Part shown: piece after piece, positions 9,562 to 45,300 of the stretch
Layout of the letters: each line of letters begins with the position of its first letter
Position numbering within the stretch: position 1 is the stretch's first letter
Source of the DNA: a virus
DNA: 55,099 bases
IMG/VR virus record: IMGVR_UViG_3300025543_000032
Span: 1 to 55,099 of that record
Direction: 5' to 3' (one strand)
Notes under the pieces: generated by a model
Databases searched by the model: none
Seen by the model: the letters and a program-made list of their open reading frames with translations, nothing else
Told to the model about the DNA's origin: nothing
Made by a program: the position numbers and the translations under genes

Positions 9562-9594
9562 CGTATATTAATTAATAAATAAAAACAATTAAAA

Positions 9595-11118
9595 ATGAGT
9601 AAATTTCTAAGTTTAGAATGGTTCAAGAACAGAGTGGATCATTCAATTGAAAAAGTTATCGAGAAGAAACTTGATAAACTAGTTGAAGAGGTAGACAACG
9701 ATGGTTCTCCTCAAACAAAACCATACAACAGCATTAAGCTAGTAAATGATGTACTAACTATTGTGCTGTCTGATGGTTCTATAATATCTAAGGTGAATGC
9801 CACTGAAGATGATTATCATGCTGCAGAGTCAGCTGCTACTATTGGAGAACTATATGTAATTGTTAGTGATCCTAATGTTGTTTCTGAGATTGCAGAGAGA
9901 GATAGATCAGAAAGAAGACTAAAGGCTCTTAGAAAGGGTCTTGCTACTTTAGAAGAGAGTGGTGAGTTTGTACTTGATGGAGATTCAGTATATTTTAAAG
10001 GTATATCTAGATCTCTACCGCAGCTATTAGTTGAAGAACTAATTAATGAGGTGAGTCGTGCTGAAGCTTTAGGTATTCCATTAAATGATTATGATGGATA
10101 TCAGTCTCTTAAACGTTTCTTTATGTGGTGTGCACTTAATCCAAGAGCTGAGGTGGCACATGAGTTATACAGATTCTTGAAAGAGAATAGTTTCCGTATT
10201 ACTAAGCAAGGGTTCTTTGTAGCACTTCGTAATGTTGTTACACTACATGGATCTCCAGAGCTTGTACACTTTATATCTAATACATATAATAAAGTGAAAG
10301 CTGTGTGGAAGAAGAGTCCAGATGACTACACTGTATTCTTACAAGATGGTGAGTACAAGATTGTACACGCAGATAAATTGTATAATGAAGAAACACACAC
10401 TAGTACTGTTTGTCCAGATTGTGATGGTGAAGGTGGTTATCATGATGAAGGTGATTCTTATGATGACGAAGATGAGTGGAATGAAGGAGAGTGGATAGAA
10501 TGTGACACATGCGATGGTACAGGTGAAGTTGAAGAGTATGAATATACTGTCACTCACAAGATAGATCATGGAGAAGAGATAGGTAAACTTACAGCTCTAT
10601 ACTTAGATCTACCTAACAGACATGAGAATCGTTTTACAGATGATTGGACTAAAACATTTGACATACGTATTGGTAAAGTGGTGAACATGCCACAAGAAGA
10701 TTGTAACTGGTCAACACAAGATTGTGCTGCAGCTGGTTTACATTTTACTTCTGACCAGATACATTATGTAGGATGTGGTGATCAATCTGTTCTCGTTCTT
10801 ATCAATCCTATGAAAGTGGTTGGTATTGGTGCACATAAAGGTAGATGCTTTGAGTATTTACCAATTATGACTGTACCAAGAGAAGAAGCTACAGAAATAC
10901 TTCATGACAATCAGTTTGATACTCTTCAATTGGATGAAGTGTATGCTGTACGTGAACTTGATGACTTGCAAGCTAAAGTGAAAGAAGGTTTTGCTAAGGA
11001 GTCTAATAAGTATGAGTTTAGCTTACCAAATATATCTTCTATAGATGTACGTAATATTGTTGGAAGTCTTGAAGAGATGAAGGCTGAGATTACTGCAAGA
11101 GTTAGGATGGTAGATTAA
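9595..11118 (+). CDS. rIIB: rIIB-like protein with DnaJ-type zinc-finger insertion
   Basis: The 507-residue protein matches the rIIB layout. The segment FFMWCALNPRAEVAHELYRFL, continued by ENSFRITKQGFFVALRNVV (about residues 179-215), corresponds to the conserved core of T4-type rIIB. The later GLHFTSDQIHYVG segment matches the GLH-containing end of that core. It is longer than T4 rIIB (312 aa). A main reason is an insertion around residues 273-315 with two CxxCxGxG motifs (CPDCDGEG and CDTCDGTG) flanking an acidic stretch, the signature of a DnaJ-type zinc ribbon. The N-terminal 150 residues are coiled and acidic. It is expected to act with the rIIA homologue. Confidence 0.75.
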   Translation: MSKFLSLEWFKNRVDHSIEKVIEKKLDKLVEEVDNDGSPQTKPYNSIKLVNDVLTIVLSDGSIISKVNATEDDYHAAESAATIGELYVIVSDPNVVSEIAERDRSERRLKALRKGLATLEESGEFVLDGDSVYFKGISRSLPQLLVEELINEVSRAEALGIPLNDYDGYQSLKRFFMWCALNPRAEVAHELYRFLKENSFRITKQGFFVALRNVVTLHGSPELVHFISNTYNKVKAVWKKSPDDYTVFLQDGEYKIVHADKLYNEETHTSTVCPDCDGEGGYHDEGDSYDDEDEWNEGEWIECDTCDGTGEVEEYEYTVTHKIDHGEEIGKLTALYLDLPNRHENRFTDDWTKTFDIRIGKVVNMPQEDCNWSTQDCAAAGLHFTSDQIHYVGCGDQSVLVLINPMKVVGIGAHKGRCFEYLPIMTVPREEATEILHDNQFDTLQLDEVYAVRELDDLQAKVKEGFAKESNKYEFSLPNISSIDVRNIVGSLEEMKAEITARVRMVD

Positions 11119-19313: not shown

Positions 19314-19610
19314 ATGGCAAAAAAACCTTACAAAGAATTACTAGGAAACAGAATATATGTGAATGTTCCTAAAAAAGATGAGAGTAAAATTATAGTTGAC
19401 GAGAATACTAAAGAAGCTCTACAAAGAGAAATGCTAAAGAAGATGTCTAAACTTAAAGTTTATGATGTTGGAGATATAGTAAAGAATGTAAAAGTGGGAG
19501 ATACAGTACTAGTAGATCCAGGCAAGTTAAAAGATGCAATGGTTATCCCTTTATCTGATGACAAAGATGTACTACTAGTATCCCCATTTGATATATTACA
19601 TGTTTGGTAA
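19314..19610 (+). CDS. GroES/gp31-like co-chaperonin (tentative)
   Basis: The 98-residue product opens MAKKPYKELLGNRIYVNVPKK and shows a GroES-like order of elements. An N-terminal strand is followed by a mobile charged loop, then VYDVGDIVKNVKVGDTVLVDPG (compare VGxG...vkvGDxVlf in GroES), then a VLLVSPFDILHVW end strand. Phages such as T4 (gp31) encode substitutes for GroES that help fold the capsid protein. The ATG at 19314 is preferred over TTG at 19305. The similarity is in pattern and length rather than a signature residue, so the call is tentative. Confidence 0.45.
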   Translation: MAKKPYKELLGNRIYVNVPKKDESKIIVDENTKEALQREMLKKMSKLKVYDVGDIVKNVKVGDTVLVDPGKLKDAMVIPLSDDKDVLLVSPFDILHVW

Positions 19611-20368
19611 TGGAAAATAATAACCTCCCTTTTATATCTTGTAAGTGTATTACGTATGGTCGAGTTGACACATTAGTAGAAGCTTTACATAGTTTTTTAA
19701 TTCAGGATTATCCTAAAGATAGGTGTGAATTAGTTATTGTAAATGATTACCCTAATCAAAAACTTATATATGATCACCCTCAGGTTACTATCTATAACTT
19801 AGATAAAACTTTTCCTTTGATAGGAGAGAAAGAGAACTATGCTATTGAACGATGTAAAGGGGAACTTATTGCTGTATGGGATGATGATGATATAGCACTA
19901 TCAAATCATTTAAAAAATATAGCAAATCACTGGAAAGAAGATACTAATATTATTCATTGGGAAACAGGTGTATATTATAATGAACCTGAGATTACAGCTA
20001 TAACTGGAGTGGGTAACTCAGGAATAGTGTATAGTAAAGATGTGTGGGAAAGAATAGGTAAAAGTCCTCTAGAGAATGCTGGTGGAGACATGACACTAAC
20101 TAATAAAATTCACGCTATAGGTGGTAAAGTAGATGTTAAGATGCCAGATAGTGAAGTTTCTTGGTTTTACATGTGGGGCGGTAGAGGATATCACCAATCT
20201 GGACAAGGTACAGACGATGGAACTAGACCTAATATTATAGAAAGGCACTCAGAACACATAGAAAGCGAGAGGAGAAAAGGTAATATACCTACAGGTGACG
20301 TATATTTACGTCCTAAGTGGAATAAAGATTATAAACAAATGCTAAAAGATTATGTCAGCTCTAGTTGA
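19610..20368 (+). CDS. Glycosyltransferase, family 2-like (GT-A)
   Basis: The 252-residue protein starts MENNNLPFISCKCITYGRVD. It shows the GT-A nucleotide-sugar fold: an ISCKCITYGR first strand, a LVIVNDYPN strand, and ELIAVWDDDDIAL with the DxD metal-binding cluster. A Trp- and Gly-rich stretch later (WFYMWGGRGYHQSG) would form the acceptor side. It overlaps the GroES-like stop (TAATG) and the next glycosyltransferase. It is one of three consecutive glycosyltransferases at the end of the plus-strand arm. The sugar and acceptor cannot be read from the sequence. Confidence 0.8.
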   Translation: MENNNLPFISCKCITYGRVDTLVEALHSFLIQDYPKDRCELVIVNDYPNQKLIYDHPQVTIYNLDKTFPLIGEKENYAIERCKGELIAVWDDDDIALSNHLKNIANHWKEDTNIIHWETGVYYNEPEITAITGVGNSGIVYSKDVWERIGKSPLENAGGDMTLTNKIHAIGGKVDVKMPDSEVSWFYMWGGRGYHQSGQGTDDGTRPNIIERHSEHIESERRKGNIPTGDVYLRPKWNKDYKQMLKDYVSSS

Positions 20369-20924
20369 GTTTATTATTCCTACATACAATAGGCATGAGC
20401 CTTTAATCTGTATGCTAGCTTCTCTTACAGCTCAAACAGATACTGACTGGAGCGGTCATGTAATTATAGATGATACAGAAAGTGAAAGAATATCTGATAT
20501 AGTAAAAAGTTTTAATGATCCTAGAATATACTGTACCTTCATGGATAAGCGGTATAATGACTGGGGACATACGTTAAGAGAGCGTGGTAAACAAATGTCA
20601 GATGCTCAATATATAGTAATGACTGGAGATGATAACTACTACACACCAAACTTTGTTTCTGAACTGCGAACAGCAACAGCTAACTCTCCTGGTTTTATTT
20701 ATTGGGACATGGTACATTCTCATTATGATTATGCATACTTTAAATGTAGTCCATTTAGTAATCAAATAGACATGGGCGCCTTTTCTACTAGAAAAGACCT
20801 AGCTCAGAAAATAGATCTTGGAGTAAGATATGATGCTGATGGTCGGTTTGTAGAACAGTTTAAAAAGAAGTTTGCAGAAGAAGAAATGTTTAAAATAAAT
20901 AAAGTTTTATTTGTACACAACTAG
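20352..20924 (+). CDS. Glycosyltransferase, family 2-like (GT-A)
   Basis: The 190-residue protein has a typical GT2 start (MSALVEFIIPTYNRHEPLIC) and a DD-containing metal site in QYIVMTGDDNYYTP. It is short, so it may be a minimal catalytic domain. It overlaps the previous glycosyltransferase by 17 bases and the next by 14, so the three are one translational unit. It could glycosylate virion proteins, DNA or a host surface; see the fibre proteins on the minus strand. Confidence 0.75.
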   Translation: MSALVEFIIPTYNRHEPLICMLASLTAQTDTDWSGHVIIDDTESERISDIVKSFNDPRIYCTFMDKRYNDWGHTLRERGKQMSDAQYIVMTGDDNYYTPNFVSELRTATANSPGFIYWDMVHSHYDYAYFKCSPFSNQIDMGAFSTRKDLAQKIDLGVRYDADGRFVEQFKKKFAEEEMFKINKVLFVHN

Positions 20925-21561
20925 TAAAGTAAAAGCTCTATTAATTAATAGAAACCTCTTAACCACTTTTAAGAATACGTTAGAGTTCTTAAGAAAAGAA
21001 TCCAGAGTAGAGATTCACATACTGGATCAAAAATCTACTTATCCTCCCCTGTTAGAATTCTACAAAACAATTTCTGAAAAAGTTCACTACTCAGAGAACG
21101 AAGGTCCATATTCAGCATGGCATCATAGATATAATCACTTACGTAAAAATTACTTTATTGTAGCAGATACAGATTGTATATATGATAATGTTCCTGATGA
21201 CTGGTTAGATGTAATGTTACACGCTATAAACCAACCAGGTTCTCCTAAAATAGGATTTTCACTAGAGATAGAAGATCTACCCAATACAGATCAAGGTAAA
21301 CAATCATATGCAAATGAGGCTAAATACTGGGAGAATAAAATTGATTTAGGATGGGACGCTTATGTAGACACTACGTTTGCATTATATAGAACTGATATGC
21401 CATTCTCATATGATGCAATAAGATTAGATAGACCTTATTGTATAAAACATGCACCTTGGTATATAGACGATTGCTGTATACCTGAAGAGTGGCAGTACTA
21501 TTTAGATCATGCTAACACTATATCTACTTGGAGAAATAGAATAAAAAAAAGCCCCAATTAA
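20911..21561 (+). CDS. Glycosyltransferase-like protein with TTG start
   Basis: The 216-residue protein has a GT-A-like acidic cluster in YFIVADTDCIYDNVPDDWL and an N-terminal strand VKALLINRNLLTTFKNTL typical of phage glycosyltransferases. No ATG lies near the start; TTG at 20911, overlapping the end of the previous gene, is the best candidate, and the first in-frame ATG would cut off the fold. The stop codon lies in the loop of the bidirectional terminator. The family is likely; the sugar is unknown. Confidence 0.65.
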   Translation: MYTTSKVKALLINRNLLTTFKNTLEFLRKESRVEIHILDQKSTYPPLLEFYKTISEKVHYSENEGPYSAWHHRYNHLRKNYFIVADTDCIYDNVPDDWLDVMLHAINQPGSPKIGFSLEIEDLPNTDQGKQSYANEAKYWENKIDLGWDAYVDTTFALYRTDMPFSYDAIRLDRPYCIKHAPWYIDDCCIPEEWQYYLDHANTISTWRNRIKKSPN

Positions 21562-21571: not shown

Positions 21572-21934
21572 TTATTTACATCCGTATTTACACTTCTTCT
21601 TTTTCATCTTGGATCCAGACTTAGCTTTCATAGTCTTACCATATCCAGCTTTCTTTACTGTTTTACCTTTCTTAGCAAAGCCCATTTTATTACGTACAGC
21701 TGTAGGTAATGCTTTAAGTCCTTTCTGTGAAGGCTTAGGTTTCTTTAATCCAGCCTTAGCTTTTTTCATTTTACCTTTAGGAGGAACCATAGAAGCAGCT
21801 TTGCCACCATAGGTCATCTTCTTAGCTTTTGTTCCAGCCTTAGCCATCTTCATTCCTGATTTGGCCTTTTTCATTTTAGTTCCAGACATAGCTTTTTTCT
21901 TTTTAGCTCCGCCTGCTTTGTATTTACGCATCAT
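21572..21934 (-). CDS. Very basic Lys-rich protein (120 aa), possible DNA-condensing
   Basis: Of 120 residues, 42 are Lys and I see no Asp or Glu. The sequence is built of short Lys/Ala/Gly/Met units (for example AKSGMKMAKAGTKAKK) and ends with a Cys-containing tail (KKKKCKYGCK). The pattern resembles histone H1-like tails and other DNA-condensing proteins. It is the last gene of a minus-strand operon with three more basic proteins upstream. A role in packaging DNA in the virion or organising phage DNA is an inference from charge; no homologue of known function is recognised. Confidence 0.6.
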   Translation of the reverse strand: MMRKYKAGGAKKKKAMSGTKMKKAKSGMKMAKAGTKAKKMTYGGKAASMVPPKGKMKKAKAGLKKPKPSQKGLKALPTAVRNKMGFAKKGKTVKKAGYGKTMKAKSGSKMKKKKCKYGCK

Positions 21935-23842: not shown

Positions 23843-24781
23843 TTAAAATTGAGAAACTAATTTCTTAAATTTCTCTGAGTTTTTGGTATTTATTAATTCT
23901 TCTATATAAATTTTTGTTATAGATTTATCATCTACATAATCATAGTTATGATTAAAAGGGTTACTATTTATAAAATTCCCTTTATAGAATTTATCTTTAC
24001 TGTCTGATGTTACTCCAGCCATGTGTAAGATTTTATTAGTTTGCCACATCTCTATAGGATCTGTAGCCCATCTGAAATCTAATTCTTTAACAATTTCAGT
24101 TTCAATATTTCTTTTCCAAAGTATCCACAATACGCACCACATCTCTGAGGTCCATGCTTGTATTGTAGGTTCGTAATCATTATATGTTATATGAGTTCTC
24201 ATAATGTCATATAATCTAGGTGACTGTATTTCAACTTCTTTGAAGTAGTCAATTAGAATGTTGTGAGGTATACCTTTATAATATAACTGGGCGCCTCCTG
24301 ATTCATCATTCTTTTCTACTATAGTGTCAAATGAAACACCAATGTAAGCACACATAGATTTTATTATCTCATCACCTTTAGTCTTTAGATATTGATAACC
24401 TAAATATCCTTTAGTATCACTACAGTAAACTACATTATCTTTTGTAAACAAGCTAAAGTCAACAGCTTCCCTAAATATAACATCTGAATCTATTAAAAAC
24501 AAGTCTTGATCTTTAGTATCTTGTTCTAAGTACTTGACAACTCCATGTATTTTTAATGTAGGGATGTAATGTTTCTGTAGTCTAGTATCTTTAAATATAA
24601 ATACATTTTCAGGATGTGCCTCTTTAAATTTATTTATAAATTCTGATGGCTTTTCACCATCTCTATATAAAAATACTGCACGGTGGTTTTCTAATAAGCC
24701 TAGCTTTTCTAGATTATAGAACTGTACTAAATTTTGCCAGTGAAAATATGGATCATCTGGTTGTGAACAAATACTGATCAT
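23843..24781 (-). CDS. Glycosyltransferase-like protein (312 aa)
   Basis: The protein has a GT-A-type nucleotide-sugar fold: an opening strand MISICSQPDDPYFHWQN, a strand with the DxD metal site (DLFLIDSDVIF), a Gly-Gly turn, and a late HMAGV segment. The AWTSEMWCVLWILWKR stretch resembles the acceptor region of eukaryotic-type hydroxyproline and serine glycosyltransferases and their phage relatives. It lies among the small poly-Thr proteins. A protein acceptor is therefore plausible, but the donor and acceptor are not evident. Confidence 0.65.
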   Translation of the reverse strand: MISICSQPDDPYFHWQNLVQFYNLEKLGLLENHRAVFLYRDGEKPSEFINKFKEAHPENVFIFKDTRLQKHYIPTLKIHGVVKYLEQDTKDQDLFLIDSDVIFREAVDFSLFTKDNVVYCSDTKGYLGYQYLKTKGDEIIKSMCAYIGVSFDTIVEKNDESGGAQLYYKGIPHNILIDYFKEVEIQSPRLYDIMRTHITYNDYEPTIQAWTSEMWCVLWILWKRNIETEIVKELDFRWATDPIEMWQTNKILHMAGVTSDSKDKFYKGNFINSNPFNHNYDYVDDKSITKIYIEELINTKNSEKFKKLVSQF

Positions 24782-27343: not shown

Positions 27344-30307
27344 ATGAAAGTAGAAAAGGCATTTGTTCTATATGCAAACTCTGAATATCTAAGTATTGTA
27401 ACAATGGCAGTGAAAAGTATTAACTCTGTTAGTGATATTCCTGTTATTGTATATATGATGAACTGTCATTCTCAGGTTCCTGGAGCAACTACAATAACTT
27501 TAGAGGTTGATAACATAGATGTTAAGAAAAGTGATTACATAGATAGAAGTGATTCAAACATTTATAGACTTTTAATACAAAGACCTCAGATTATAGAACA
27601 TGCTTTAGAGAACTATGCAGAAGTTGTGGCTTATATAGATTCTGACACTATAGTTACTAAACATATAAACAACATATTTGAACATTACCCTAAAGATTGC
27701 ACCCATCCATATTTTGTACAGGGTGTATATGATTACTTATTTATAGATGGTAGAGGTGGTGTAGAGACTAGAGACGAATTACATCTTAGCTTAGAACATG
27801 CTGCATGTGAATTGTTTGGTGTAGATCAATCAGTTAGAGATAAGTATAGACAAACAGGATACTTTGTTGCTGGTCAAGAGTCTCGTGACTGGATTAATGA
27901 GTGGTCATGGATGTGCAATCACCCAAAAGTTTTAAAAAACCCACAACTATATGCACCGTATCACGAAGAAACAATAGCAAATGTATTGTTATGGAAGTAT
28001 AATATACATGAGGGTTTACCGTTAATGTACATAAACTATAGACAAGATACTAATTTAGATGAACTTGAGTTTACAGGTTATATAAATCATGTTTCAGAAT
28101 GGGTAGCATTGCCTGCTTACAGAAATCAACTAATGGCCTTACATGGAGAAAAAGATATTAAAAAAATGGATAACCTTATAAATAAAATTCATAAGAAGAT
28201 ATTGTTTTTAGCGCCACATCTATCTACAGGAGGTATGCCTCAGTTCTTATTGAAAAGAATTCAGGCTCTTACTGATTTTACAGTGTATGTAGTTGAGTGG
28301 GCTAATTATAGCAATGAGTACACTGTACAAAAAGATCAAATAAAAAAGCTTACTAATAAGTTTTATACACTAGGTGAAGATAAAACAAAGCTTATAAACA
28401 TTATTAAAGATAATGATATAGATATTGTACACATAGATGAGATGGCTGAACATCTAGGTGATGATGCAGATAAAGTTTTACCATTGCTCTATAGTGAAGA
28501 TAGAACTTGGAAGATAGTTGAAACATGTCATAATATATCTTTCAACTATGACAATCAAAAAATATACCATCCTGAAGCCTATGCTTTTTGTAGCCCTCAT
28601 CATCTAGATACTTTCTCAAATACTAACTCTATAGTAGAAGTTATTGAATACCCTATAGAAGAAAAGATATTTGATTGGCAATCTAAACTAAATGCTAAGT
28701 ATGACTTAGGGTTAGATGTAGACAAAAAACATGTAGTGAATGTAGGACTCTGGACAAAAGGTAAGAACCAAGGTGAAGGTGTAGCTCTTGCAAAGAAGTT
28801 TCCTCATGTACAATTTCACTTTGTAGGAAATCAAGCTGGTAACTTTAAAGAATATTGGCAACCTATTATGGAAGACATTCCAGAAAATGTAAAAGTGTGG
28901 GGAGAGCGTACAGATATAGACAAGTTCTTGCTAGCTGCAGATGTATTTATGTTTAATAGTGTGTGGGAATGTAACCCTTTAGTGTTACGAGAAGCTATAG
29001 CATATAAGCTACCTATACTTGCAAGAAACCTACCTCAGTATAAAGACATGTTTACACAGTATATAACAGATCTAAATCCACTAAAGATGAAGAATCAGTT
29101 ATCACAGTTACTAAAAAACACATCACCGTACAATCCTCCTACAGACAACACACTAGTTGATTTTAAAAAAAGCCACACAGATCTTTATACATCCGTGCTA
29201 AACTCAAACTATACAAACTATAAGGTGCACCAAAGCTTTATAGATAGTCCTTTCTTAGAAATCAAAGGATCTAGTAAAGAAAAGTTTACAGTGATAATGG
29301 AAGATGAAAAGGGCCCAGTGTATAGCTCACAAATTGATGCAAACTGCTGGATAAAACTAAACAGAGAGTACTATAGCAAGTGGAAAACTACAGTTAAAAT
29401 AGGAGAAGAAGTAGTTCATACACATGAATTAAACCTTGAAGGTGAAAGAGTGTACATAGCATTTGAAAGCAGCTCATTAGGAGACTCTATAGCATGGATA
29501 CCTTACGTATTAGAGTTTCAGAAGAAGCACAATTGTAAGGTGATTGTAAGTACGTTTAAGAACTTCTTATTTGAGGATGTGTATCCTGAACTTGAGTTTG
29601 TAAAGCCTGGTGCAGATGTGCCTAACATATATGCAATGTATAACATTGGCTGGTTTTACGATGAAAACAAAGAGCCAGAATTACCAAATACAATTCCGTT
29701 ACAAAAAGCCGCTTCCAACATTTTAGGATTAGAACACAGAGAGATAGTACCTAGAGTTAAAAGTGATTGGGGAAATATATGTGGTATGAAAGATAACTAC
29801 AGTGTTCCAGGTAAGTATGTAACTATAGCTACTAACTCTACAGCTGGTTGTAAGTTCTGGACTAGAGAGGGTTGGCAAGATGTTATAAACTATTTACATG
29901 AAAAAGGCTATAAAGTTATTAATACCTCTATAGAAAACAATCCTTTTGATAATTGTGAAAAGATAGTAGATACATCTTTGGAATATACTATCGATTGTAT
30001 AAGACAGAGTAAATTCTTTATAGGACTATCTAGTGGACTTAGTTGGTTAGCTTGGGCTATAGGTACACCTGTTGTAATGATATCAAACTTTACAGAAGCT
30101 GATCATGAGTTTAGTTGCTACAGAGTTACTGATGAATCTTTATGCCATGGGTGTTGGAATAATCCAAATCATAAGTTTGACAAGGGAGATTGGGACTGGT
30201 GCCCTGAACATAAAAATACCCCTAGACATTTTGAATGTCATAGAGGTATAAGTTCTGATAAGGTGATTAGTAAAATTCTAACACTCTTATTAATTTCTAA
30301 GAAGTAA
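27344..30307 (+). CDS. Three-domain glycosyltransferase with O-heptosyltransferase-like C-terminus
   Basis: The 987-residue protein joins three domains. Residues about 1-270 are a GT-A domain like family GT8 (AEVVAYIDSDTIVTKHI holds the DxD). Residues about 280-640 are GT-B/family GT4-like (KKILFLAPHLSTGGMPQFLL; VVNVGLWTKGKNQGEG; SVWECNPLVLREAIAYKLPI). Residues about 700-980 match the bacterial autotransporter O-heptosyltransferase (BAHT) family: IAFESSSLGDSIAWIPYV, KFWTREGWQDVINYL, FIGLSSGLSWLAWAIGTPVV, then Cys934, Cys937, Cys953 and Cys965 in CHGCWN...WCPEHK...ECHRG, the four-Cys iron site of that family. BAHT enzymes attach heptose to protein Ser residues. It is the only plus-strand gene in the virion arm and ends two bases from the opposing fibre gene. 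Confidence 0.8.
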   Translation: MKVEKAFVLYANSEYLSIVTMAVKSINSVSDIPVIVYMMNCHSQVPGATTITLEVDNIDVKKSDYIDRSDSNIYRLLIQRPQIIEHALENYAEVVAYIDSDTIVTKHINNIFEHYPKDCTHPYFVQGVYDYLFIDGRGGVETRDELHLSLEHAACELFGVDQSVRDKYRQTGYFVAGQESRDWINEWSWMCNHPKVLKNPQLYAPYHEETIANVLLWKYNIHEGLPLMYINYRQDTNLDELEFTGYINHVSEWVALPAYRNQLMALHGEKDIKKMDNLINKIHKKILFLAPHLSTGGMPQFLLKRIQALTDFTVYVVEWANYSNEYTVQKDQIKKLTNKFYTLGEDKTKLINIIKDNDIDIVHIDEMAEHLGDDADKVLPLLYSEDRTWKIVETCHNISFNYDNQKIYHPEAYAFCSPHHLDTFSNTNSIVEVIEYPIEEKIFDWQSKLNAKYDLGLDVDKKHVVNVGLWTKGKNQGEGVALAKKFPHVQFHFVGNQAGNFKEYWQPIMEDIPENVKVWGERTDIDKFLLAADVFMFNSVWECNPLVLREAIAYKLPILARNLPQYKDMFTQYITDLNPLKMKNQLSQLLKNTSPYNPPTDNTLVDFKKSHTDLYTSVLNSNYTNYKVHQSFIDSPFLEIKGSSKEKFTVIMEDEKGPVYSSQIDANCWIKLNREYYSKWKTTVKIGEEVVHTHELNLEGERVYIAFESSSLGDSIAWIPYVLEFQKKHNCKVIVSTFKNFLFEDVYPELEFVKPGADVPNIYAMYNIGWFYDENKEPELPNTIPLQKAASNILGLEHREIVPRVKSDWGNICGMKDNYSVPGKYVTIATNSTAGCKFWTREGWQDVINYLHEKGYKVINTSIENNPFDNCEKIVDTSLEYTIDCIRQSKFFIGLSSGLSWLAWAIGTPVVMISNFTEADHEFSCYRVTDESLCHGCWNNPNHKFDKGDWDWCPEHKNTPRHFECHRGISSDKVISKILTLLLISKK

Positions 30308-30309
30308 TA

Positions 30310-30738
30310 TCATCCTAAGCTTGCTACTGTTAATACTGTATACGTAATTTCTCTACCATCTGGTATTGATGTATAATCCAGTGTTATAGTGTCACCTACT
30401 GCATACCCTGAGCCTGCTGCTGTTATAGAAGAAACAGATGTAGCTGCTCCAGTATTACCGTCTAAAACTACATTAAAAGTAGCTCCTGAACCAGAACCGC
30501 TAGTGCTTCTTTGAACAGTGGCATAAGTTCCTCCAGAAAATTTTATGAATCCTCCAGTACTTATTGTAACTGATGCAACACCTGAAGCTGCTGTAGTAGT
30601 AGTTGTGGTTGTAGGATCAGGAAAAACTTGAAGATCTTCTACATAAGCCTCAGTTATAGTTACAGACTTGTTACCAATTCTTGTACCAAGACCTACAACT
30701 GGATCAGTACTTGCACTATTTTTTATTCGTATAGGCAT
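30310..30738 (-). CDS. Small fibre/virion protein with poly-Thr linker (142 aa)
   Basis: The 142-residue protein begins MPIRIKNSASTDPVVGLGTR, has a linker DPTTTTTTTAASG at about residues 41-53, and continues with a beta-rich Gly/Ser/Thr domain (TAAGSGYAVGDTITLDY) like those in phage fibres. It starts one base before the stop of the long fibre gene upstream, so the two are cotranscribed. The Thr tract resembles those in the two small proteins at 23590 and 24811. Probably a fibre tip or accessory. Confidence 0.6.
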   Translation of the reverse strand: MPIRIKNSASTDPVVGLGTRIGNKSVTITEAYVEDLQVFPDPTTTTTTTAASGVASVTISTGGFIKFSGGTYATVQRSTSGSGSGATFNVVLDGNTGAATSVSSITAAGSGYAVGDTITLDYTSIPDGREITYTVLTVASLG

Positions 30739-30739: not shown

Positions 30740-33700
30740 TTATGTAATTAAATAAACTGTTCCTGCTACTAATGTTCCATTTCCAGATGCTGTGTTATAA
30801 TCTGCCTGTTCTATTTGCACAATATTACTAACTGTAGAAGAACCTGAAGGTTCTCCTGTTGTTGTTGATGTTACTCCAGGAAAAGTTATCCATCTAACTG
30901 CTGACCCAGTTGACTTAAGTATATAATTATTACTACCTGGAGAACCAGTTTCATCAGCAAGACCAGCATTTAGTTCAATATCATCTTCGCACTTAAGTGG
31001 AGCTCTAGCTATAATATCACCTCCTCCTTCTACCTCAAATTCTGAGTTAGCACCACCACTACCACCTGCCAGAAAGCCACCATTTACTTCTAACTTAGCA
31101 CTAGGAGTTGTAATTCCTACCCCTACATTATTTGAAGCATCTTGGTATATAACAGATTCATCTATACCATTTCCAGCATTATTAAATTTAGTTATATACT
31201 TAGCTGTTCCTGATAAACTTACAGAGTTTCCACTAGTTCCAGATGTCCCAGACGTTCCACCTGCACCAGTTACACCAGATGTACCTGCTGTACCACTAGT
31301 ACCAGCTGTACCAGCTGTACCACTACTACCTGAGGTTCCGCTAGTACCTGATGTTCCAGAAGTACCACTATTACCAGATGTACCATTTGCTCCACTGGTA
31401 CCTGATGTTCCACTATCTCCTGATGTTCCACTTGTTCCTGAGTTTCCACTTGTTCCAGAAGTACCACTTGTACCATTATTACCACTTGCCCCAGAGGTTC
31501 CACTAGTACCTGATGTACCTGTATTACCGCTAGTTCCTGAAGTGCCACTATTTCCACTTGTTCCATTAACACCACTTGTCCCATTAACACCACTAGTTCC
31601 TGAATTACCTGATGTTCCAGACGTACCAGATGTACCACTGTTACCACTAGTACCATCATTACCAGAGGTTCCTGAAGTACCAGAGTTTCCACTAGTGCCA
31701 CTAGTTCCTGAAGTACCATTGTTTCCATTCACTCCACTTGTGCCAGAGGTTCCACTAGATCCATCTCCTCCAGTAGCTCCATCAAGGTTTATTTCCCATG
31801 ATGTATAAGTACCTGAACCAACTGTTCGAGTGGGGCTTCCAAATTGTAATGCTCCTGTTCCAGAGTTATATGATATTATTTCACACTCTTGGTATCTAGT
31901 TGCATTGTTAGCTATAATTATAGATTGGGCTGTTGTATAAGCAAGTCCTGTATCAACAGTAATTGTTCCACTATTACCTAATGTAAATGATGTACTTGAT
32001 GTAGTGGCATATTCATCACCTGTATTACCACTTGTTCCTGAAGTACCGCTAGTACCAGTATTTCCAGAGGTACCTGACGTACCACTGTTACCACTAGTGC
32101 CTGAGGTTCCACTTGTACCATTTTGTCCACTAGTTCCACTAGTTCCTGAGGTTCCAGTATTTCCAGAAGTTCCACTTTCACCTGATGTGCCGCTAGTACC
32201 ATCTACTCCACTTGTACCATTTACTCCAGAAGTACCATTTATACCACTAGTACCATCTTCTCCACTGGTGCCTGATGTTCCTGAGGTTCCAGTATTTCCA
32301 CTTGTACCATCTTCCCCACTAGTACCTGAAGTACCACTATTCCCAGACGTACCACTTGTTCCACTACTTCCATCAGCACCACTAGTACCTGTTGTACCAC
32401 TAGTTCCTGAACTACCTGAGTCTCCACTAGTTCCAGAGGTTCCTGTTGTACCAGATGTTCCTGACGAACCACTAGTTCCTGTAGTTCCTGAAGAGCCTGA
32501 TGAACCACTTGTACCAGAAGTTCCATCATTACCATTATTTCCAGAACTACCACTAGTACCACTAGTACCACTAGTACCATTTTGTCCGTTTTCTCCAGAT
32601 GTACCACTTGTGCCACTTGTACCATTGTTTCCAGAAGTACCATTTGCTCCAGAAGTTCCACTCGTTCCAGCTGTTCCAGATGTACCTGTTGTTCCAGAAG
32701 TACCATCTAATGCACTTGATCCACTAGTTCCACTAGTTCCACTTGTGCCTGATATACCAGTAGTACCTGATGTACCACTACTACCGTCTCCACCAGTTGC
32801 ACCATCTAAGTTTACCTCCCAAGCTGTATATGTTCCACTACCTACGGTTCTAGTTGGTGAGCCAAAACATAACTCACCTGTTCCACTATTATAGGAAACA
32901 ACTTCACATTCTTGATAATTACTACTGTCATATGCTATTATAATAGATTGAGCTGTAGTGTATGCTAGTAAAGTATCAACATCTAAACATCCACTATTAC
33001 CTAATGTGAATGAGTCTGTTGATGTTGTTGCATATTTATCTCCTTGATCACCTGAACTACCAGATGTTCCACTTGTTCCAGAAGATCCTGAAATACCACT
33101 AGTTCCAGAGGTACCACTAAAACCAGATGACCCACTTTCTCCTGACGTACCACTAGTACCGCTTGTACCTGTAGTTCCAGCTGTTCCACTAGTGCCAGAT
33201 GTACCATCTTCCCCTGATGTACCTGAGTTTCCAGAGGTTCCACTAGTTCCAGAAGTTCCATCTGCTCCTGAGGATCCACTTGTACCAGTTGTACCAGCAG
33301 TACCACTTGTTCCAGCAGTACCACTCGTTGCAGATGTTCCACTTGTTCCGCTTGTTGCAGATGTTCCAGATGTTCCACTTGTACCTGTTGTACCTGCTGT
33401 TCCACTTGTTGCACTTGTACCAGAGGTACCAGTTGTACCACTAGTTCCAGTGGTTCCTGAAGTACCATCCAAGCCTGCAGTACCAGAAGTACCTGAGGTT
33501 CCTGATGATCCATCACCACCTGTGGCTCCATCTAAGTTAACTTCCCATGTAGAGTATGTACCTGATCCTACAGTTCTTGTAGGTGCTGCAAAACAAAGTT
33601 CTCCAGTTGCACTATTGTATGTTACAACTTCGCACTCTTGATAGTTACTTGCATCATGTGCTACTATTATTGATTGTGCAGTGGTGTATGCCAATCCTGT

Positions 33701-35539
33701 ATCTACATCAATACATCCTGAATTACCTAATGTAAAAGAATCTGTTGAGGATGTTGCATAAAAATCTCCATCATTTCCACTAGTTCCAGAAGTGCCAGAA
33801 GTACCTGTAGTACCTGAGGTTCCGTCTGTTCCTGTAGTACCTGAAGTACCACTAGTACCACTAGTGCCACTGGTACCTGTTGTTCCAGATGTTGCAGATG
33901 TACCAGATGTACCTGATGTACCTGAAGTTGCAGAGGTTCCAGAAGTACCACTAGTTGCAGAAGTACCAGAAGTACCAGAGCTACCAGCTGTTCCTGCTGT
34001 ACCAGATGTAGATCCTACAGATACACCAACTTGTTTTGTTACAACAATAATAGAAGGTGCAGCTGGTGCAGTGAATGGACTGTTTTTAGAAGTTTCAGCT
34101 ATTATTTCTACATACTGAGATGTAGATGCTAGTACAATTTCTAAATAATCACCTGCATCTAATTCTAATATTATAGATACAAAAGGTAATGACTTTCCGT
34201 TATTTGAATTTAACTCTAGAATGGAATCTGTACGTATTATATCTGTACCATTCTTTCTTAAAAATATATCTACTTCAGCAGCACTACCACCTTGAGTCTT
34301 TTGCATTTGTAGAGAGTAACCTATCTCATAAGTTCCAGCATAAGGATATCTAATCTGTTGATTAAAATCTAATGCTATACCATTTGCTACTTCTATTGTA
34401 TTATATGTAATAGCTGTTGGTACATTTGCTGCAGTTACAGTTTGTGTTGTACTATCAGAAAAACTAGCATACCAATTAGCAATTGCTGCTCCTGACGATC
34501 CATTTATACCACTAGTTCCTGCTGTACCTGCTGTCCCAGAAGTCCCTGTTGTACCTGATGTACCACTACTTCCGCTTGTTCCTGTTGTTCCACTGCTTCC
34601 TGATGTGCCAGCTGTTCCTGATGTACCAGTTGTACCTGACGTACCAGCTGTACCACTTGTCCCAGTTGTACCACTTGATCCAGATGTACCACTCGAACCA
34701 CTAGTTCCAGTTGTACCACTTGTACCAGTAGTCCCACTTGTACCACTTGACCCACTAGTTCCTGTACTACCAGATGTTCCTGTTGTTCCACTAGATCCGC
34801 TTGATCCAGAAGAACCATCGCCACCAGTAGCACCATCTAGATTTATTTCCCAACTAGAATAAGTACCACTACCTACAGTACGTGTAGGACTTCCAAAAGC
34901 TAAAGCACCTGTTATTGAATTATAGGATATTACCTCACACTCCTGGTAATTACTAGCATCAAATGCTATAATAATTGATTGAGCCACTGTATAAGCTAAT
35001 CCAACATCAACAGTTAATGTACCTGAGTTTCCTAAAGTGAAAGAATCTGTAGAAGATGTAGCATATTTATCACCATCCTCACCAGATGTACCAGTTGTAC
35101 CTGAAGTTCCACTTGTTCCACTTGATCCAGAACTACCTGATGTACCAGTTGTACCACTTGTTCCTGTTGTTCCTGATGAACCACTAGATCCACTACTGCC
35201 AGATGTACCAGTTGTCCCACTAGTACCTGTTGTCCCACTAGAACCACTAGTTCCACTTGTACCAGAAGAGCCACTAGTTCCTGTTGTACCAGAAGTTCCT
35301 GCTGTGCCAGACGTACCTGTAGTTCCAGACGTACCTGTAGTTCCAGATGTGCCTGATGTTCCACTTGAACCATCAACACCTGCACCTGTACTTAAAGCTT
35401 TATTAATTTCTATTAATATCTGCTCAACTGTTTGATTGGTGGTAGCATTAATGTATATCAAGTTAGGGCCTTCATAGAAGACACATGCACTACTAAGTCT
35501 GATTGGACAAGGATCTGCCGCACAAATTAACTTACTCAT
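30740..35539 (-). CDS. Giant collagen-like Gly-Ser-Thr tail/head fibre (1,599 aa)
   Basis: The protein starts with a short Cys-containing module (MSKLICAADPCPIRLSSACV, residues 1-45). Hundreds of Gly-X-Y triplets follow, mostly GTS, GTT, GSS, GTA and GNS. The triplet runs are interrupted by four copies of a roughly 85-residue beta module (about residues 155-240, 590-675, 830-915 and 1170-1260, each with SFTLGNSG, AQSII, YQECE, PTRTVGSGTY and NLDGATGGDGSSG). One C1q-like jelly-roll domain (about residues 350-510) also interrupts them. The end has KYITKFNNAGNGID and NNVGVGITTPSAKLEVNGGF, typical of phage fibre heads. Triplets without proline suggest a triple helix stabilised in another way, possibly by Thr glycosylation. 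Confidence 0.8.
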   Translation of the reverse strand: MSKLICAADPCPIRLSSACVFYEGPNLIYINATTNQTVEQILIEINKALSTGAGVDGSSGTSGTSGTTGTSGTTGTSGTAGTSGTTGTSGSSGTSGTSGSSGTTGTSGTTGTSGSSGSSGSSGTTGTSGTTGTSGSSGSSGTSGTSGTTGTSGEDGDKYATSSTDSFTLGNSGTLTVDVGLAYTVAQSIIIAFDASNYQECEVISYNSITGALAFGSPTRTVGSGTYSSWEINLDGATGGDGSSGSSGSSGTTGTSGSTGTSGSSGTSGTTGTSGTTGTSGSSGTSGSSGTTGTSGTAGTSGTTGTSGTAGTSGSSGTTGTSGSSGTSGTTGTSGTAGTAGTSGINGSSGAAIANWYASFSDSTTQTVTAANVPTAITYNTIEVANGIALDFNQQIRYPYAGTYEIGYSLQMQKTQGGSAAEVDIFLRKNGTDIIRTDSILELNSNNGKSLPFVSIILELDAGDYLEIVLASTSQYVEIIAETSKNSPFTAPAAPSIIVVTKQVGVSVGSTSGTAGTAGSSGTSGTSATSGTSGTSATSGTSGTSGTSATSGTTGTSGTSGTSGTSGTTGTDGTSGTTGTSGTSGTSGNDGDFYATSSTDSFTLGNSGCIDVDTGLAYTTAQSIIVAHDASNYQECEVVTYNSATGELCFAAPTRTVGSGTYSTWEVNLDGATGGDGSSGTSGTSGTAGLDGTSGTTGTSGTTGTSGTSATSGTAGTTGTSGTSGTSATSGTSGTSATSGTAGTSGTAGTTGTSGSSGADGTSGTSGTSGNSGTSGEDGTSGTSGTAGTTGTSGTSGTSGESGSSGFSGTSGTSGISGSSGTSGTSGSSGDQGDKYATTSTDSFTLGNSGCLDVDTLLAYTTAQSIIIAYDSSNYQECEVVSYNSGTGELCFGSPTRTVGSGTYTAWEVNLDGATGGDGSSGTSGTTGISGTSGTSGTSGSSALDGTSGTTGTSGTAGTSGTSGANGTSGNNGTSGTSGTSGENGQNGTSGTSGTSGSSGNNGNDGTSGTSGSSGSSGTTGTSGSSGTSGTTGTSGTSGDSGSSGTSGTTGTSGADGSSGTSGTSGNSGTSGTSGEDGTSGNTGTSGTSGTSGEDGTSGINGTSGVNGTSGVDGTSGTSGESGTSGNTGTSGTSGTSGQNGTSGTSGTSGNSGTSGTSGNTGTSGTSGTSGNTGDEYATTSSTSFTLGNSGTITVDTGLAYTTAQSIIIANNATRYQECEIISYNSGTGALQFGSPTRTVGSGTYTSWEINLDGATGGDGSSGTSGTSGVNGNNGTSGTSGTSGNSGTSGTSGNDGTSGNSGTSGTSGTSGNSGTSGVNGTSGVNGTSGNSGTSGTSGNTGTSGTSGTSGASGNNGTSGTSGTSGNSGTSGTSGDSGTSGTSGANGTSGNSGTSGTSGTSGTSGSSGTAGTAGTSGTAGTSGVTGAGGTSGTSGTSGNSVSLSGTAKYITKFNNAGNGIDESVIYQDASNNVGVGITTPSAKLEVNGGFLAGGSGGANSEFEVEGGGDIIARAPLKCEDDIELNAGLADETGSPGSNNYILKSTGSAVRWITFPGVTSTTTGEPSGSSTVSNIVQIEQADYNTASGNGTLVAGTVYLIT
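31210..35370 (-). repeat. Degenerate 9-nt collagen-like repeats and four repeated modules
   Basis: Within the fibre gene, Gly-Thr/Ser-Ser/Thr triplets are encoded by variable codons, so the DNA is a degenerate tandem repeat of 9-base multiples rather than a pure satellite. Four larger modules recur at about 31758-32032, 32786-33052, 33508-33778 and 34812-35085, and are 65-80% alike by eye at protein level. A jelly-roll module is at 34010-34490. Such repeats invite recombination that changes fibre length. Confidence 0.8.
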
Positions 35540-35552: not shown

Positions 35553-35960
35553 TTAGTGTACTATTTTCAGGAAGTCTCCTGTTCTATATAATGATCCTAT
35601 TTCTGCTCCAGCAAATATTGCAGCAGCATTGTTAGAATACTCAGGAACTCCTGCATTAGGAGCTGTAATAATTCTTTCCCATTCAGTATCTCTGTCAGCA
35701 GCTTTTGCATAATAAAGAAAGCTAGTTGCAGTATTAACAAAAAGTTTTCCTATATGTGTTGCTACATATTGTGGAACTGGAGTATATACAGGAACAGTTG
35801 TTCCTGTAAGAGGAATTAAATTATTATTTATACTCTCTAATACTACATCCAAGGAGTCTCCTGGATTAGCTGCAATATTAGAAAGATAGGCACCATTGTA
35901 CAAGATACAACTAGCATCTTGATATGTAGCGCAGGTGGGACAAATTTCAGCGATTCTCAT
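35553..35960 (-). CDS. Small virion protein sharing the fibre's N-terminal module (135 aa)
   Basis: The 135-residue product begins MRIAEICPTCATYQDASCIL and continues YNGAYLSNIAANPGDSLDVV, LESINNNL. The long fibre has the same pattern (CPIRLSSACVFYEGPNLIYI, NATTNQTVEQIL, EINKAL). The shared segment is probably a virion attachment module. The rest (TPVPQYVATHIGKLFVNTAT; GAEIGSLYRTGDFLKIVH) is beta-rich. It precedes the fibre gene by 13 bases and is the first of the fibre genes after the giant proteins. Confidence 0.6.
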   Translation of the reverse strand: MRIAEICPTCATYQDASCILYNGAYLSNIAANPGDSLDVVLESINNNLIPLTGTTVPVYTPVPQYVATHIGKLFVNTATSFLYYAKAADRDTEWERIITAPNAGVPEYSNNAAAIFAGAEIGSLYRTGDFLKIVH

Positions 35961-42000: not shown

Positions 42001-42385
42001 AAGTAAATAAAGTATCAGTTCTTTCGTTGCTAATATTAACCTCAACAATAAAACTATTCTCAGCTAATAAAGATGTAATAATTTCTTCTCTGTCAGTAAT
42101 ACCTTTATTTAATATAATTTCTTTTTGATCTTTAGGTACTTGAAGTTCTGTTAAGGTTTTATCTAAAGTCCAGTTATTCTTTTCACCTTTAGCAAACATT
42201 TGTTTAGCTTTTTGTGAACTAAGAATGTCTATAGATTTTATACTAGCTCTTAAAATAGCTTGTTTACTTTCTGATTGGGGAACTTCACCATTGTAAGTGT
42301 CCCATAAGAAATAAGCCATGTTTTCTCCTCTAGAAGCTACTAGTTCCTTCCATTGTGGTAAGTTTATATTTGGACATGTTGCCAT
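36032..42385 (-). CDS. Giant virion-associated protein with PD-(D/E)XK nuclease-like segment (2,117 aa)
   Basis: The protein starts MATCPNINLPQWKELVASRG, a start typical of giant crAss-like and marine phage proteins. Residues about 195-400 resemble a domain of large polyvalent phage proteins (GHARFSTDNGIGWFR, ILEVQSDLFQKGR, RVLFPKGNTASKIEGM). Around residue 605 ALTEEMVHIATAI resembles a degraded HExxH helix. At about residues 895-930, AGTIDLLIVDQDGTANIYDW then KF gives the D...D-x-K pattern of PD-(D/E)XK nucleases. Long coiled coils follow, then a hydrophobic stretch near residue 1985 (LALLASLLGMALALGWM). It overlaps the upstream RNAP-like gene (TAATG). It is probably packaged in the virion with it. 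Function beyond the nuclease-like segment is unknown. Confidence 0.6.
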   Translation of the reverse strand: MATCPNINLPQWKELVASRGENMAYFLWDTYNGEVPQSESKQAILRASIKSIDILSSQKAKQMFAKGEKNNWTLDKTLTELQVPKDQKEIILNKGITDREEIITSLLAENSFIVEVNISNERTDTLFTFKDFNYNGDEITTNHKNTYREYFKNGKQISKEEWGNIVKLYRENKPTQYYSNLTVPGGTNYTENEITTPDITPNIKGHARFSTDNGIGWFRSDDKTIDSTLEEYEVEYEGWGGTSQYVQKHEGSSGGIVTKTRRILEVQSDLFQKGRDKKDLVGGFKYFDNKFEDTEYVYKNQRPGEYIKLKKGVGQFSKAISITKEEYESKAPIKQQPKELSKKNQFLQLLNQKGNWVTFFVKSIIQDSAKKRYERVLFPKGNTASKIEGMQTLEEFRKQKESRIKILEQEIKDLDKGIFGSFKYVKEDNKFYIGEINDPFGVLKPISENEYKTDLKRGLTLKENELKTLKQELADVESGKNQLSSISNFYENNITNILKKNGYNPVEIKDEYNNTWNEVLIAPAQANETILFQKQTEQPITKASSEMLNKVKEVIKKMGVDVQPLTDYARQNPAIDESSVNAVADLTAGVIAIAEGKEDVALTEEMVHIATAIIEQKNPELVTEMISKIGRFKIYKDTLEAYKDLPAYQLENGKPNIRKIKKEAVDKMITSIILGDTSLEEADQSIFRRMWDMITDWFRGQYKKANIDIFSTTAETVIGGEFEGSVVDLDSKEIYYQLTDPQKAFQRKVEEIIGGDKPMLRKIESEEKADPLLGGEKKATNHYEVLVDGKYKRVPRVTDRVKAWYKSRFGTGGFTAQQDKDNEVKRVLGTKYHDFFDLDIHNRFFNSDGTRRANPGPKPTFSNSVDSQIYDKLETYYTDLIASFSENGKNPLVFSELMIYDAKNKEAGTIDLLIVDQDGTANIYDWKFMSVAKGAEDVAWFKQGAYDIQLGTYKKILLDNYGIKRMGKNRAVPIIMDLKRENPQDNTSKLQIKGIKIGSVNPTQIEPLTITPVSERSESTGVEAFDELIEELNAIQDQISKTKANTDEERAFKNERSNIINKAIRTLQSQQQIGPLIDAIAIMQREGQNLIAEYKTSYEGRPADSKDLTDEELSNFSADLREYIASSNIFGGIADRIGDYIYNDTLEKQAITDEEKADVANRKEILKNLTDQSTSIRKSRRDIVKISGEFADKFIGQRNLVTGLMNPERIIKGLSSLFRGTSEIGLKALDILYKLANRAMGFAQEDALGEVNELLEIRNKLEARGGDLKKLVEGIYQKDKKGAIANKLIYKYQRDFFDEVDANAEEGRRSKKWLKENVDLEAYAKEAKPILKERVRRINKTYEDGELKEKLILQEYQKWDISKVDFRGYNNYVIKRHPLEKWESQEYINLKKDPELFELYNFISDINAKARDVGYINNAAQSTFLPFVRKSMAESLAWDGSLGSISNFQSNFTSELDTVGYGNINQVTGELENSIPKYYTTDFSIKEDGTNDYSDVSLDLFKNMIMYINHMEKYKYLSSIEDQLLLVKTAEQFKKHLKTSSFSMALTKDGKNIEQKGNNDNIEIIDQFFRNVLYGQKYALDDSDVEVPLVGTVTKGVTKVINSVSRGLTGQDAVKEGSKQTTGSLIKIMDFLNRYVQIKALGFKSISGLANYFGGNLQLAALAGKYFDYSEVFRYQARLFGNRFKSDDERKMFVQLIDKFMPLKDDPTYDKMVSAGMSKLTDKNYSDILFVWFRQTEQHLEKSVFMALLDNMMVEDGKLVNIRDFVKNKYKNRYASSEEYNSVKGKIKQEVDELKKTRSINATKKLEDGKLVVPGLDLSNREELQRLTNVARTLSRTATGGATEFDNIRANMNVWLRSLMVFKGWIPKLALTRFGEFRKVADDFSVEIGEDGLTTGEMYDIGRIRLFSNFLHFNILRSVKEVIDVLTVSEDGVSKIDELFDKYTRDYEQRFGEPLNMTKEDFSDMIRLNLRNQVRELALLASLLGMALALGWMAPDDDKDRATKNKFRYFQKVVDKFISEVSFFYNPAEMATTLDSGLPAIGLFEDFGRATNHFFKETTGIDLFDPTKSAEQVRKEAQPIKNSMKLFPVSNSILPLLASFDEEFAKEFNITISKTAR

Positions 42386-45300
42386 TAGCCTTTACATTTT
42401 TTATTAATTATTTCTCCAGCTTGCTCATCAGTGAATCCAGAGTTCTTCAAGCTCTCAGCAGTTATTATTGATTTTGCAAACATTCTGCCATTTACAATTA
42501 TTCTATCTTTTGTAACAGTTATTTCTAGCGGTCCTGTGATAGCTTTATTATACTTTGAAGTTTGTGTTGTATTTTCATACACTGCTACTATTTGACCATC
42601 TGTCACCTCATCCACCTTCATCATACCATTATCAATAATAGATTGCTTAGCTTCTGAATAGAACTCATTAGCTCTAAAGCTATCTCCAAAAGCATTTATT
42701 GCTTTGTATATAGGATATCTTCTGCCTTTTTTATCTTCTGTAAAAATTGGATCTCCATCTACATCTTTTACTATCTTAAACAAACCTTTATTTCTATAAG
42801 AATAGTCACCTTGTTTGCGCATTCTATTTCTCTCTTCTCTTGAAATTTCATAATTAGTCCATGTAAACACTTGATATTCCTTGTTAAAATCATTACCAGT
42901 AACAAGTTGAGGAATCTCATTTGCCCTCATAGCGTTCTTTAAGTTGTTATAACCACTAAATCCTAAAGAGGGATAGAAGGGACCGTACTCTCCAAACCTA
43001 AGATACAGTTCTTTGTTTGGAACTATATCATCGTTATTCCAATTGTTTCTTTGGAATATACCAAGCTCATAGAAGTCGTCTAAATTACTTAAATTTTCTA
43101 TCTTAGGCAAAGTTTTATTGTATATTCTTGCGAAGTCCTCATAAGGAATGAGTGATGTAAATGATATAGGTGAACTACTAAGTCCTGACTGCAGAATAGC
43201 TAGAGTAACTATCTTATCATACAAGTTTGTCTTATCTTTAAGATGATCTCTTAAATCACGGAAAGCATATATAATATTATTTTGATCATATGCTTTACTA
43301 TCTGTATTTTTAAGAGATACATTACTTGGTGTAGTTTCACCGCCAAGTCTAGAAGGTTGCACTTGAAGAAGATCAATTACATGATTATAATATAAAGCGT
43401 GCTCTACATCTTTCTTAACTTCATCAATAAACGAAACCACTTCAGAAGCTACACCTTTATCTGAAAGAAGTGTTTGTTGTATCTGTAAGTTAAGTCCTTG
43501 GTCTGTTTGTACAGCCCAGTCAAATAAATCGTTTACAGCTTTTCTACCCACTGAAATAAATTTTCTATCTGGTAAACTAGTATAAGGTTTAAGAACTTTT
43601 CTTATTACATTTCCAACATTTCCTCTATCTGATAAAATAAAGTTTGAAAGAGCTTCTACAGAGTCATTTAGTTTACTAGCTTGATTTCTAATAAAAGAAT
43701 TTGACAATATTGCTTCTGCAGCAGGTACAGTTTCTCCATCTACATTTTTTGAAGAAAGTATGCTGTCTTTTGCTTTATTGAATTGCTCATTCTTTTTAAA
43801 TACAAGTAACGAATCATTAAACCTTGATGTGTCCCAATTAGTACCTTGTGTAACTGTGTATAATTGATTAGCCATCTTAGCATACTTTAAAAACTCTTGA
43901 AGCATAAACACTTGCTCTAGGTTCTCTTTATCAGTAAATTCTGTTTTACCTAAAGAGTTAAGTAGGGAAGCTTTACTAGGTATTTGTGTAGGTAATTTCT
44001 TTTCTTGAGCTTCTGTCAACCCTCCATATTCTTCTATAGTTTGATTTATAAAATCATCTATAAATAAGAACTTATATCCTGCATTCTCAACTGATTGTAA
44101 ATAGTCACGAATGATTGGTTGGTTCATAAAGTAGGCTATAGTATCAATAGGTACTCCTAAATGTGTAAGAAACATAAATGTTGCTGCTACATTTGGTGTA
44201 GCACCCATCTCCATAATCCATGGACCTTTAGATATATCTACATAACCATCAATAAACTGTCCAAGTATATCAGAAATAAGCTGACCTGCTGCATTATACA
44301 CACCAGATAATGATGGGTATTCTTGTCCATCTATTGTAACCTTATTATATTTTTGAAATGTAATCTTACCATCACCTAAGTATTTTTGATCTTGATAATC
44401 TACATTTTTTAATTTATCACTATCAATAAATACAGGAGATCTTTGAAGAAGAGAATGTATAGTTTGTTGAACAGCAGCAATACCAATAGCTTGTTTACCT
44501 GCTACAAAAGCTTGTCTTAACCTAGACATAAATCTTCTGTCAAGCATGTTATCTATATTAGTGTAATCAAACTCTTTACCTATTACTTTCTCAACAATAG
44601 TTTTAGATATACCTTTTAATTGTTCAGCAGAGTTAGGTGTGGTAAGTCTTTCAAAGTTTGCTGGATGAGTTACTAGGTTTTCAGAAGACTGGATAAACTC
44701 ATTCTCTAGAGATTGCTTATACATTCTATTAACAACTGCATCTCTTACACCATCTTTCTTTAGTTCTTCAACTAATGTAGTTAGAGCATCTTCATCTTGA
44801 CTTACACCAAGAGTTTCAAACAATACACCAGCTTTTTCATCTTTAGCTAAATCAAGCATTCCAGTTAACTCATAACCTTTTAGCTCTTGTAAGTCCTTTA
44901 GTTGTTTTTGTTGATCCTTGTTAAATAACTTACCACTATCAAACATAGCAGCAAACTTATCTTTAGCTTGTTGTCCAAATCCGTAGAAAGAAACAAGTTT
45001 AAGTTTACCATCTTCGTAAAATACATTTTTAAGGTAGACTGAAAGTTTATCAATATCAAAGTCACTTCCCACCTTCTTAACAATAGCAGCAGGTACAACC
45101 ACGTTATCTCCAAACTCTTTTGGTAAAAACTTTTTTATTCTAATCGCATCAATAGAGTTTTGTTTCTGTGTAGGAATACGAAAAGCTAATCCAGATAATA
45201 TCTTTTGTCCTTCTTCTGTATTGTTTAAATATTCAAGAAGTTCTGCATCAGACATGTTACTTTGGAACCAACGTCCCACCATAATCTCCATTGTAGTTGT

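Follow-up and report, generated by a model that had tools for sequence, protein, structure and literature searches.

A phage gene fusing GT-A, GT4 and TibC-like domains beside a collagen-like tail fibre gene, and its probable role in fibre glycosylation

Domains of the fused gene and the fibre beside it

Within the viral record IMGVR_UViG_3300025543_000032 of the IMG/VR collection (55,099 bases; this whole stretch is referred to as the window), one gene encodes a polypeptide of 987 residues that joins a GT-A-fold domain, a GT4 glycosyltransferase domain and a C-terminal domain resembling TibC, an enzyme of the BAHT family of protein O-heptosyltransferases. The gene is convergent with that of a 1,599-residue collagen-like tail fibre dominated by Gly-Thr-Ser (GTS) triplets, with a short gene for a protein bearing a threonine tract in between. 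We consider it probable that this single polypeptide assembles O-glycans on the fibre of the phage that encodes it. The features on which this reading draws are as follows.

27344..30307, + strand: triple glycosyltransferase gene, 987 residues (open reading frame with ATG start)
27344..28168, + strand: GT-A-fold domain, residues 1-275, DxD at D99-D101 (AlphaFold model, Foldseek)
28181..29188, + strand: GT4 domain, approximately residues 280-615 (PF00534; E542-x7-E550)
29195..30280, + strand: TibC/TIGR04414-like domain, approximately residues 618-979 (N-terminal beta-barrel and GT-B-type catalytic domain)
29939..29944, + strand: site of the thumb deletion, after residue 866 (gap at TibC F265/V266)
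29987..29989, + strand: Thr882 at the position of TibC Arg286, the adenine contact (alignment)
30143..30238, + strand: four-Cys iron-finger motif, C934, C937, C953 and C965 (sequence)
30310..30738, - strand: Thr-tract protein, 142 residues, weakly baseplate-like (PHROG 32294, E 2e-4)
30740..35539, - strand: collagen-like tail fibre, 1,599 residues, proposed substrate (PF01391, PHROG tail fibre families)
35553..35960, - strand: protein of 135 residues with an N-terminus like that of the fibre (sequence comparison by eye)

The C-terminal domain scores 272 bits against the NCBIfam model TIGR04414 (cut-off 200, residues 648-979), also matches PF01075 (E 8e-9), and finds TibC by phmmer (E 4e-46). 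Comparison of its fold with TibC had been set beforehand as a point on which the initial annotation of this gene could fail, and the annotation came through it: the AlphaFold model matches TibC in Foldseek with a template modelling score (TM) of 0.84, a root-mean-square deviation of 2.5 and an E-value of 8e-31 over 377 aligned columns. Strands of the N-terminal beta-barrel are visible in the model, and because this barrel is present the domain begins near residue 620 and not at 690, where it had been placed. In TibC, catalysis relies on Asp110 as the base, donor binding on Thr226, Lys230, Arg286 and Trp305, and the iron site on four cysteines (PMC4358343). Across an alignment of 54 phage and 80 cellular sequences, the equivalents of Asp110, Thr226, Lys230 and Trp305 (D714, T833, K837 and W901 in the present protein) and all four iron-finger cysteines are kept in 54/54 phage sequences, and the spacing that had been noted for the iron site is exact (C934-x2-C937-x15-C953-x11-C965). 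Judged by these residues, the catalytic centre of the phage domain looks alive.

Two positions set the phage domain apart from its cellular relatives. The active TibC dodecamer needs a beta-hairpin thumb with Phe265 and Val266 (PMC4358343), and this thumb is absent from all 54 aligned phage sequences, so the TibC ring should not form. Arg286 of TibC contacts the adenine of ADP-heptose (PMC4358343); the residue is Arg in 79/80 cellular sequences and, in the phages, Thr in 53/54 and Val in one, a substitution with which base recognition has probably changed. The initial annotation as a BAHT-type protein O-heptosyltransferase is therefore borne out for the fold, the active-site residues and the iron finger and fails for the thumb and Arg286, and since these two defining features are missing we file the domain as a thumbless sister of the BAHTs rather than as a BAHT. 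It likely still works as a BAHT-like protein O-glycosyltransferase. Heptose is a possible sugar, not an established one; residue 300, which sets the choice between two heptose isomers and is Pro in TibC and Ser in AAH (PMC4358343), is Ser in 51 of the 54 phage sequences. A search of 34 records for the ADP-heptose adenylyltransferase (TIGR02199) returned none over the cut-off and one weak match, which speaks against a phage-borne supply of ADP-heptose in these records, and the sugar donor is taken to come from the host.

The two preceding domains are less closely tied to particular enzymes. The GT-A domain is modelled with a local confidence (pLDDT) of 92, and its Foldseek matches fall in the order GT6, then GT24/UGGT, then GT8 LgtC and glycogenin, at TM values of about 0.5; its DxD is kept in 69/72 relatives. 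A Pfam scan of residues 1-275 gave no match, and the earlier label of GT8-like thus survives as a statement on fold and falls as one on sequence family. The GT4 assignment stands in full, with PF00534 at residues 455-574 (E 1.9e-11; 44.3 bits, cut-off 26.4) and an E-x7-E motif starting at 542 and present in 78/81 sequences. Three fused glycosyltransferase domains can hence be retained, two of them by sequence and the first at the level of fold. The reading frame itself is genuine, and the ratio of non-synonymous to synonymous substitution rates (0.11-0.17 against four relatives) indicates purifying selection. A near-identical copy on another contig (L069:8123-11086) has a single in-frame stop at codon 704 that removes the TibC-like domain, and this may be either a real variant or a sequencing error. 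Homopolymer phase variation is ruled out for this copy by the one in-frame stop and the lack of a frameshift.

Relatives of the gene carry further modules at the front end, including a methyltransferase (L007), an FkbM-type methyltransferase (L047) and a GT25-like domain (L062), and one protein of 1,599 residues (L081) contains GT4, GT-A, GT25-like, TibC-like, FkbM and DUF6165 parts. With glycan-building modules arranged serially on one chain, we take the enzyme to assemble a short glycan rather than to transfer a single sugar, and the extra modules of its relatives would vary that glycan.

The neighboring protein described initially as a Ser/Thr/Gly-repeat fibre is present and is more exactly a Gly-X-Y collagen-like tail fibre, with a PF01391 match at E 3e-112 in addition to the PHROG families. 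Its clean repeat runs hold 283 triplets (147 GTS, 33 GSS, 28 GTT) with 459 Ser and Thr at the X and Y positions, and Pro occurs in none of the 283. Pfam found no autotransporter domain in the fibre; a collagen-like repeat takes the place of the autotransporter beta-helix as candidate substrate. The Thr-tract protein noted beside the gene is likewise there and is a possible second substrate, while the 135-residue protein is a possible short partner of the fibre.

Co-occurrence of the enzyme with GTS collagen

A scan of viral contigs with the TibC-like domain as one query gave 127 stretches, of which 80 were kept. In 44 loci the downstream sequence spans 5 kb or more, and a GTS-type fibre lies nearby in 35 of them, downstream and on the opposite strand (convergent) in 33 of the 35 and within 5 kb in all but one of the 35. 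At the level of whole contigs, the GTS DNA pattern occurs in 42/50 contigs that carry the enzyme vs 2/50 controls, each with one match. In a reverse test, contigs were chosen only by the GTS DNA pattern from the matches listed and were verified as Gly-X-Y reading frames; among those matches, the enzyme was found in 23 of the first 50 contigs by TIGR04414 and in 6 of 23 further ones by a phage profile, in total 29/73 vs 0/73 control contigs. The phage profile added no enzyme on the TIGR04414-negative contigs of the first 50. The controls comprised 37 contigs chosen by a random 15-mer and 36 chosen by ordinary GPKGDT collagen, with the enzyme in 0/37 and 0/36, and the second count speaks against a link to collagen fibres of any kind. 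Most contigs are fragments, and we take absence only as a trend in the longer ones: at lengths of at least 60 kb, the enzyme is present in 19/25 GTS contigs (again among the matches listed) and 0/15 controls. Co-occurrence, the second point on which the initial reading could have failed, was thus seen in both directions, and the gene does not occur mostly apart from Ser/Thr-repeat proteins. Fisher p-values range from 1e-6 to 3e-17 with contigs treated as independent, and because they are not independent these values are too small.

Recurrences on unrelated backbones weigh more than these p-values. The isolate Microcystis phage Mel-JY01 (PP395634.1) encodes a 1,227-residue protein running from GT4 to TibC-like parts about 1.7 kb from a GTS collagen frame of 805 residues (635-3052, +), which is on the same strand as the enzyme. 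In the public record of this phage the collagen frame was missed, an antisense frame (739-2298) is called a hypothetical protein, and the glycosyltransferase carries the label "methyltransferase FkbM". In a 735-kb phage (LR756501), whose genome holds about 1,300 GTS matches, the enzyme gene adjoins one for a GTS protein. Among the 80 cellular relatives only six are thumbless, all from gammaproteobacterial metagenome-assembled genomes (MAGs), and small GTS/GSS-repeat proteins lie near 6/6 of these vs 0/74 of the other cellular relatives. In one such genome (L428) a stand-alone thumbless TibC-like gene sits between two small proteins with lipoprotein-like starts and terminal GTS/GSS repeats (6503-6883 and 9246-9872), possibly a cellular version of the system. 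A strongly supported branch of the tree separates the 54 phage and six MAG sequences from TibC and the rest, with the caveat that long branches meet at this split and the exact order inside it is unsure.

Several observations weigh against the reading of the enzyme as a fibre glycosyltransferase. The controls are not lineage-matched, and shared ancestry inflates the significance of the tests. Six large GTS contigs were without the enzyme, although on one of them the fibre sits at a contig end; a 117-kb contig with the enzyme (L074/G094) has only three GTS matches, and in a 636-kb phage with the enzyme (LR756504) the GTS pattern was not found. The enzymes found by way of GTS fibres are also diverse: most are thumbless, some have a shortened thumb and a few a full one, and two full-thumb enzymes in GTS phages keep the TibC-like Pro300 and Arg286. 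That thumb loss and the GTS substrate go strictly together is ruled out by the several phage enzymes on GTS contigs that retain a thumb. The pairing of enzyme and GTS collagen is thus common and not obligatory.

Proposed action on the fibre and alternative targets

The initial proposal, that the phage encodes the means to glycosylate its own fibres, is strengthened by the TibC-like fold of the model and by the co-occurrence, and from these we infer the activity of the enzyme, its substrate, the order of addition and any benefit as follows. In the cytoplasm of the infected cell, the enzyme would act on newly made chains of the collagen-like fibre. The TibC-like domain would prime the reaction by placing a first sugar on the hydroxyls of Ser (or Thr) in the Gly-Thr-Ser repeats, and the GT4 and GT-A domains would then extend it by one sugar each. 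Because the thumb is missing, the substrate is probably the single chain, before or during trimerisation, with no TibC-type ring around a beta-helix. The sugars may stiffen, protect or mask a collagen fibre that is free of Pro; this is conjecture, and glycosylation of bacterial collagens is thought to aid their stability (PMC8968730). A broader proposal is more tentative, and we hold it with less than even confidence: that phages and a few gammaproteobacteria share a thumbless TibC-like subfamily which serves Pro-free GTS collagen exclusively, uses a donor other than ADP-heptose, has been built into fused assembly lines in phages and yields a product that stabilizes the triple helix.

Other targets for the enzyme have to be weighed against the fibre. 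The glycosylated proteins could be other virion or host proteins, with the fibre only a frequent neighbor by virtue of a shared late tail region in one phage group. Many of the 80 relatives do come from one phage lineage, and this account would accommodate the six GTS-rich contigs without the enzyme as well as the enzyme contigs with few or no GTS repeats. Against it, the pairing recurs in the cyanophage isolate, the 735-kb phage and the bacterial MAGs, and none of the contigs chosen for ordinary GPKGDT collagen carried the enzyme; we regard this account as unlikely. Similarly improbable, in our judgement, is that the gene remodels a host surface polysaccharide (lipopolysaccharide, LPS, or O-antigen) during infection and thereby excludes other phages. 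This is the published reading for GT8-type phage genes near fibres in pelagimyophages (PMC7029224), LPS enzymes exist in the GT4, GT8 and GT9 families, and the window holds extra small GT2 genes. Yet the C-terminal domain matches TibC, a protein O-glycosyltransferase, best (E 8e-31) and WaaC and WaaF at no better than E 4e-8, the gene showed neither a membrane segment nor a flippase, and remodelling would leave the link to GTS collagen and the pairing on bacterial chromosomes without explanation. A DNA-modifying glycosyltransferase set as in the T-even phages is very hard to credit: DNA is a frequent target of phage glycosyltransferases (PMC7029224, PMC9614988), but a DNA-acting relative of the TibC-like domain is not known and the fused domains adjoin the fibre gene, not genes of nucleotide metabolism (modified-base pathway genes were not systematically searched for).

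Related systems and other genes of the window

Four known systems come closest, and the last three of them are precedents in concept for the proposed glycosylation of the fibre by its neighbor. With the BAHTs TibC and AAH (PMC4358343) the phage enzyme shares the fold, the N-terminal beta-barrel, the catalytic Asp, the Thr/Lys/Trp donor site and the four-Cys iron finger, as well as a position next to the gene for a Ser-rich repeat surface protein; it differs in being thumbless, in having Thr for Arg286, in its fusion to GT4 and GT-A domains, in being phage-borne and in having a collagen-like partner and not an autotransporter. In Clostridioides difficile, the gene for SgtA lies beside bclA3, and the enzyme puts an O-linked sugar on Thr (or Ser) of the BclA3 Gly-X-Y repeats in vitro (PMC7157674). 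That locus likewise pairs a glycosyltransferase gene with a collagen-like gene, although the enzyme is an unrelated, single-domain and cellular one that uses UDP-N-acetylglucosamine on GPT, not GTS, repeats. Mimivirus L230 (PMC9614988) is also a virus-encoded multidomain enzyme glycosylating virus-encoded collagen, but its target is hydroxylysine, it combines a GT25-like part with a lysyl hydroxylase, and the virus is eukaryotic. Mycobacteriophages modify their own structural proteins with phage glycosyltransferases (Freeman et al. 2023, cited in PMC12619734), there on the C-termini of capsid and tail-tube subunits; as far as PMC12619734 and the sources on SgtA/BclA3 and L230 tell, none of these three systems has a TibC-like enzyme. 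Among open-licence papers we found none that links a BAHT to a phage or to collagen, and the present pairing of enzyme and substrate looks new.

When a phage glycosyltransferase gene lies near a fibre gene, its product is usually taken to modify the host surface or DNA. For one group of these enzymes the fibre itself offers a concrete and testable alternative target. If this is correct, heavy glycosylation of fibres would be widespread among environmental phages, given the many GTS fibre matches listed and the 127 enzyme stretches from one query, and this would bear on adsorption, on the stability of virions and on recognition. It would further suggest naturally how Pro-free collagen could hold together, and would make available a compact enzyme with which simple GTS repeats could be glycosylated.

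The remainder of the window contains phage replication genes (helicase, Sak4, primase, ribonucleotide reductase and UvsX-like), RIIA/RIIB-like genes identified by PHROG search and an amidase. At 42385-54873 (-) lies a gene for a protein of 4,162 residues that matches nothing in Pfam or PHROG, next to one for a 2,117-residue protein with weak nuclease-like matches that gave no match to a phage collection searched for phage kinship. A 312-residue protein of PHROG 4417 (23843-24781, -), with no function assigned and no Pfam match, contains the string LIDSDVIF, which resembles a GT-A DxD. The small GT2-type genes (19604-21561, +) are three in succession and possibly supply more glycan-building capacity or host-surface modification. 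Immediately after them, at 21572-21934 (-), is a very Lys-rich protein of 120 residues with K/G/M repeats and no family match, which could be a packaged DNA-binding protein.
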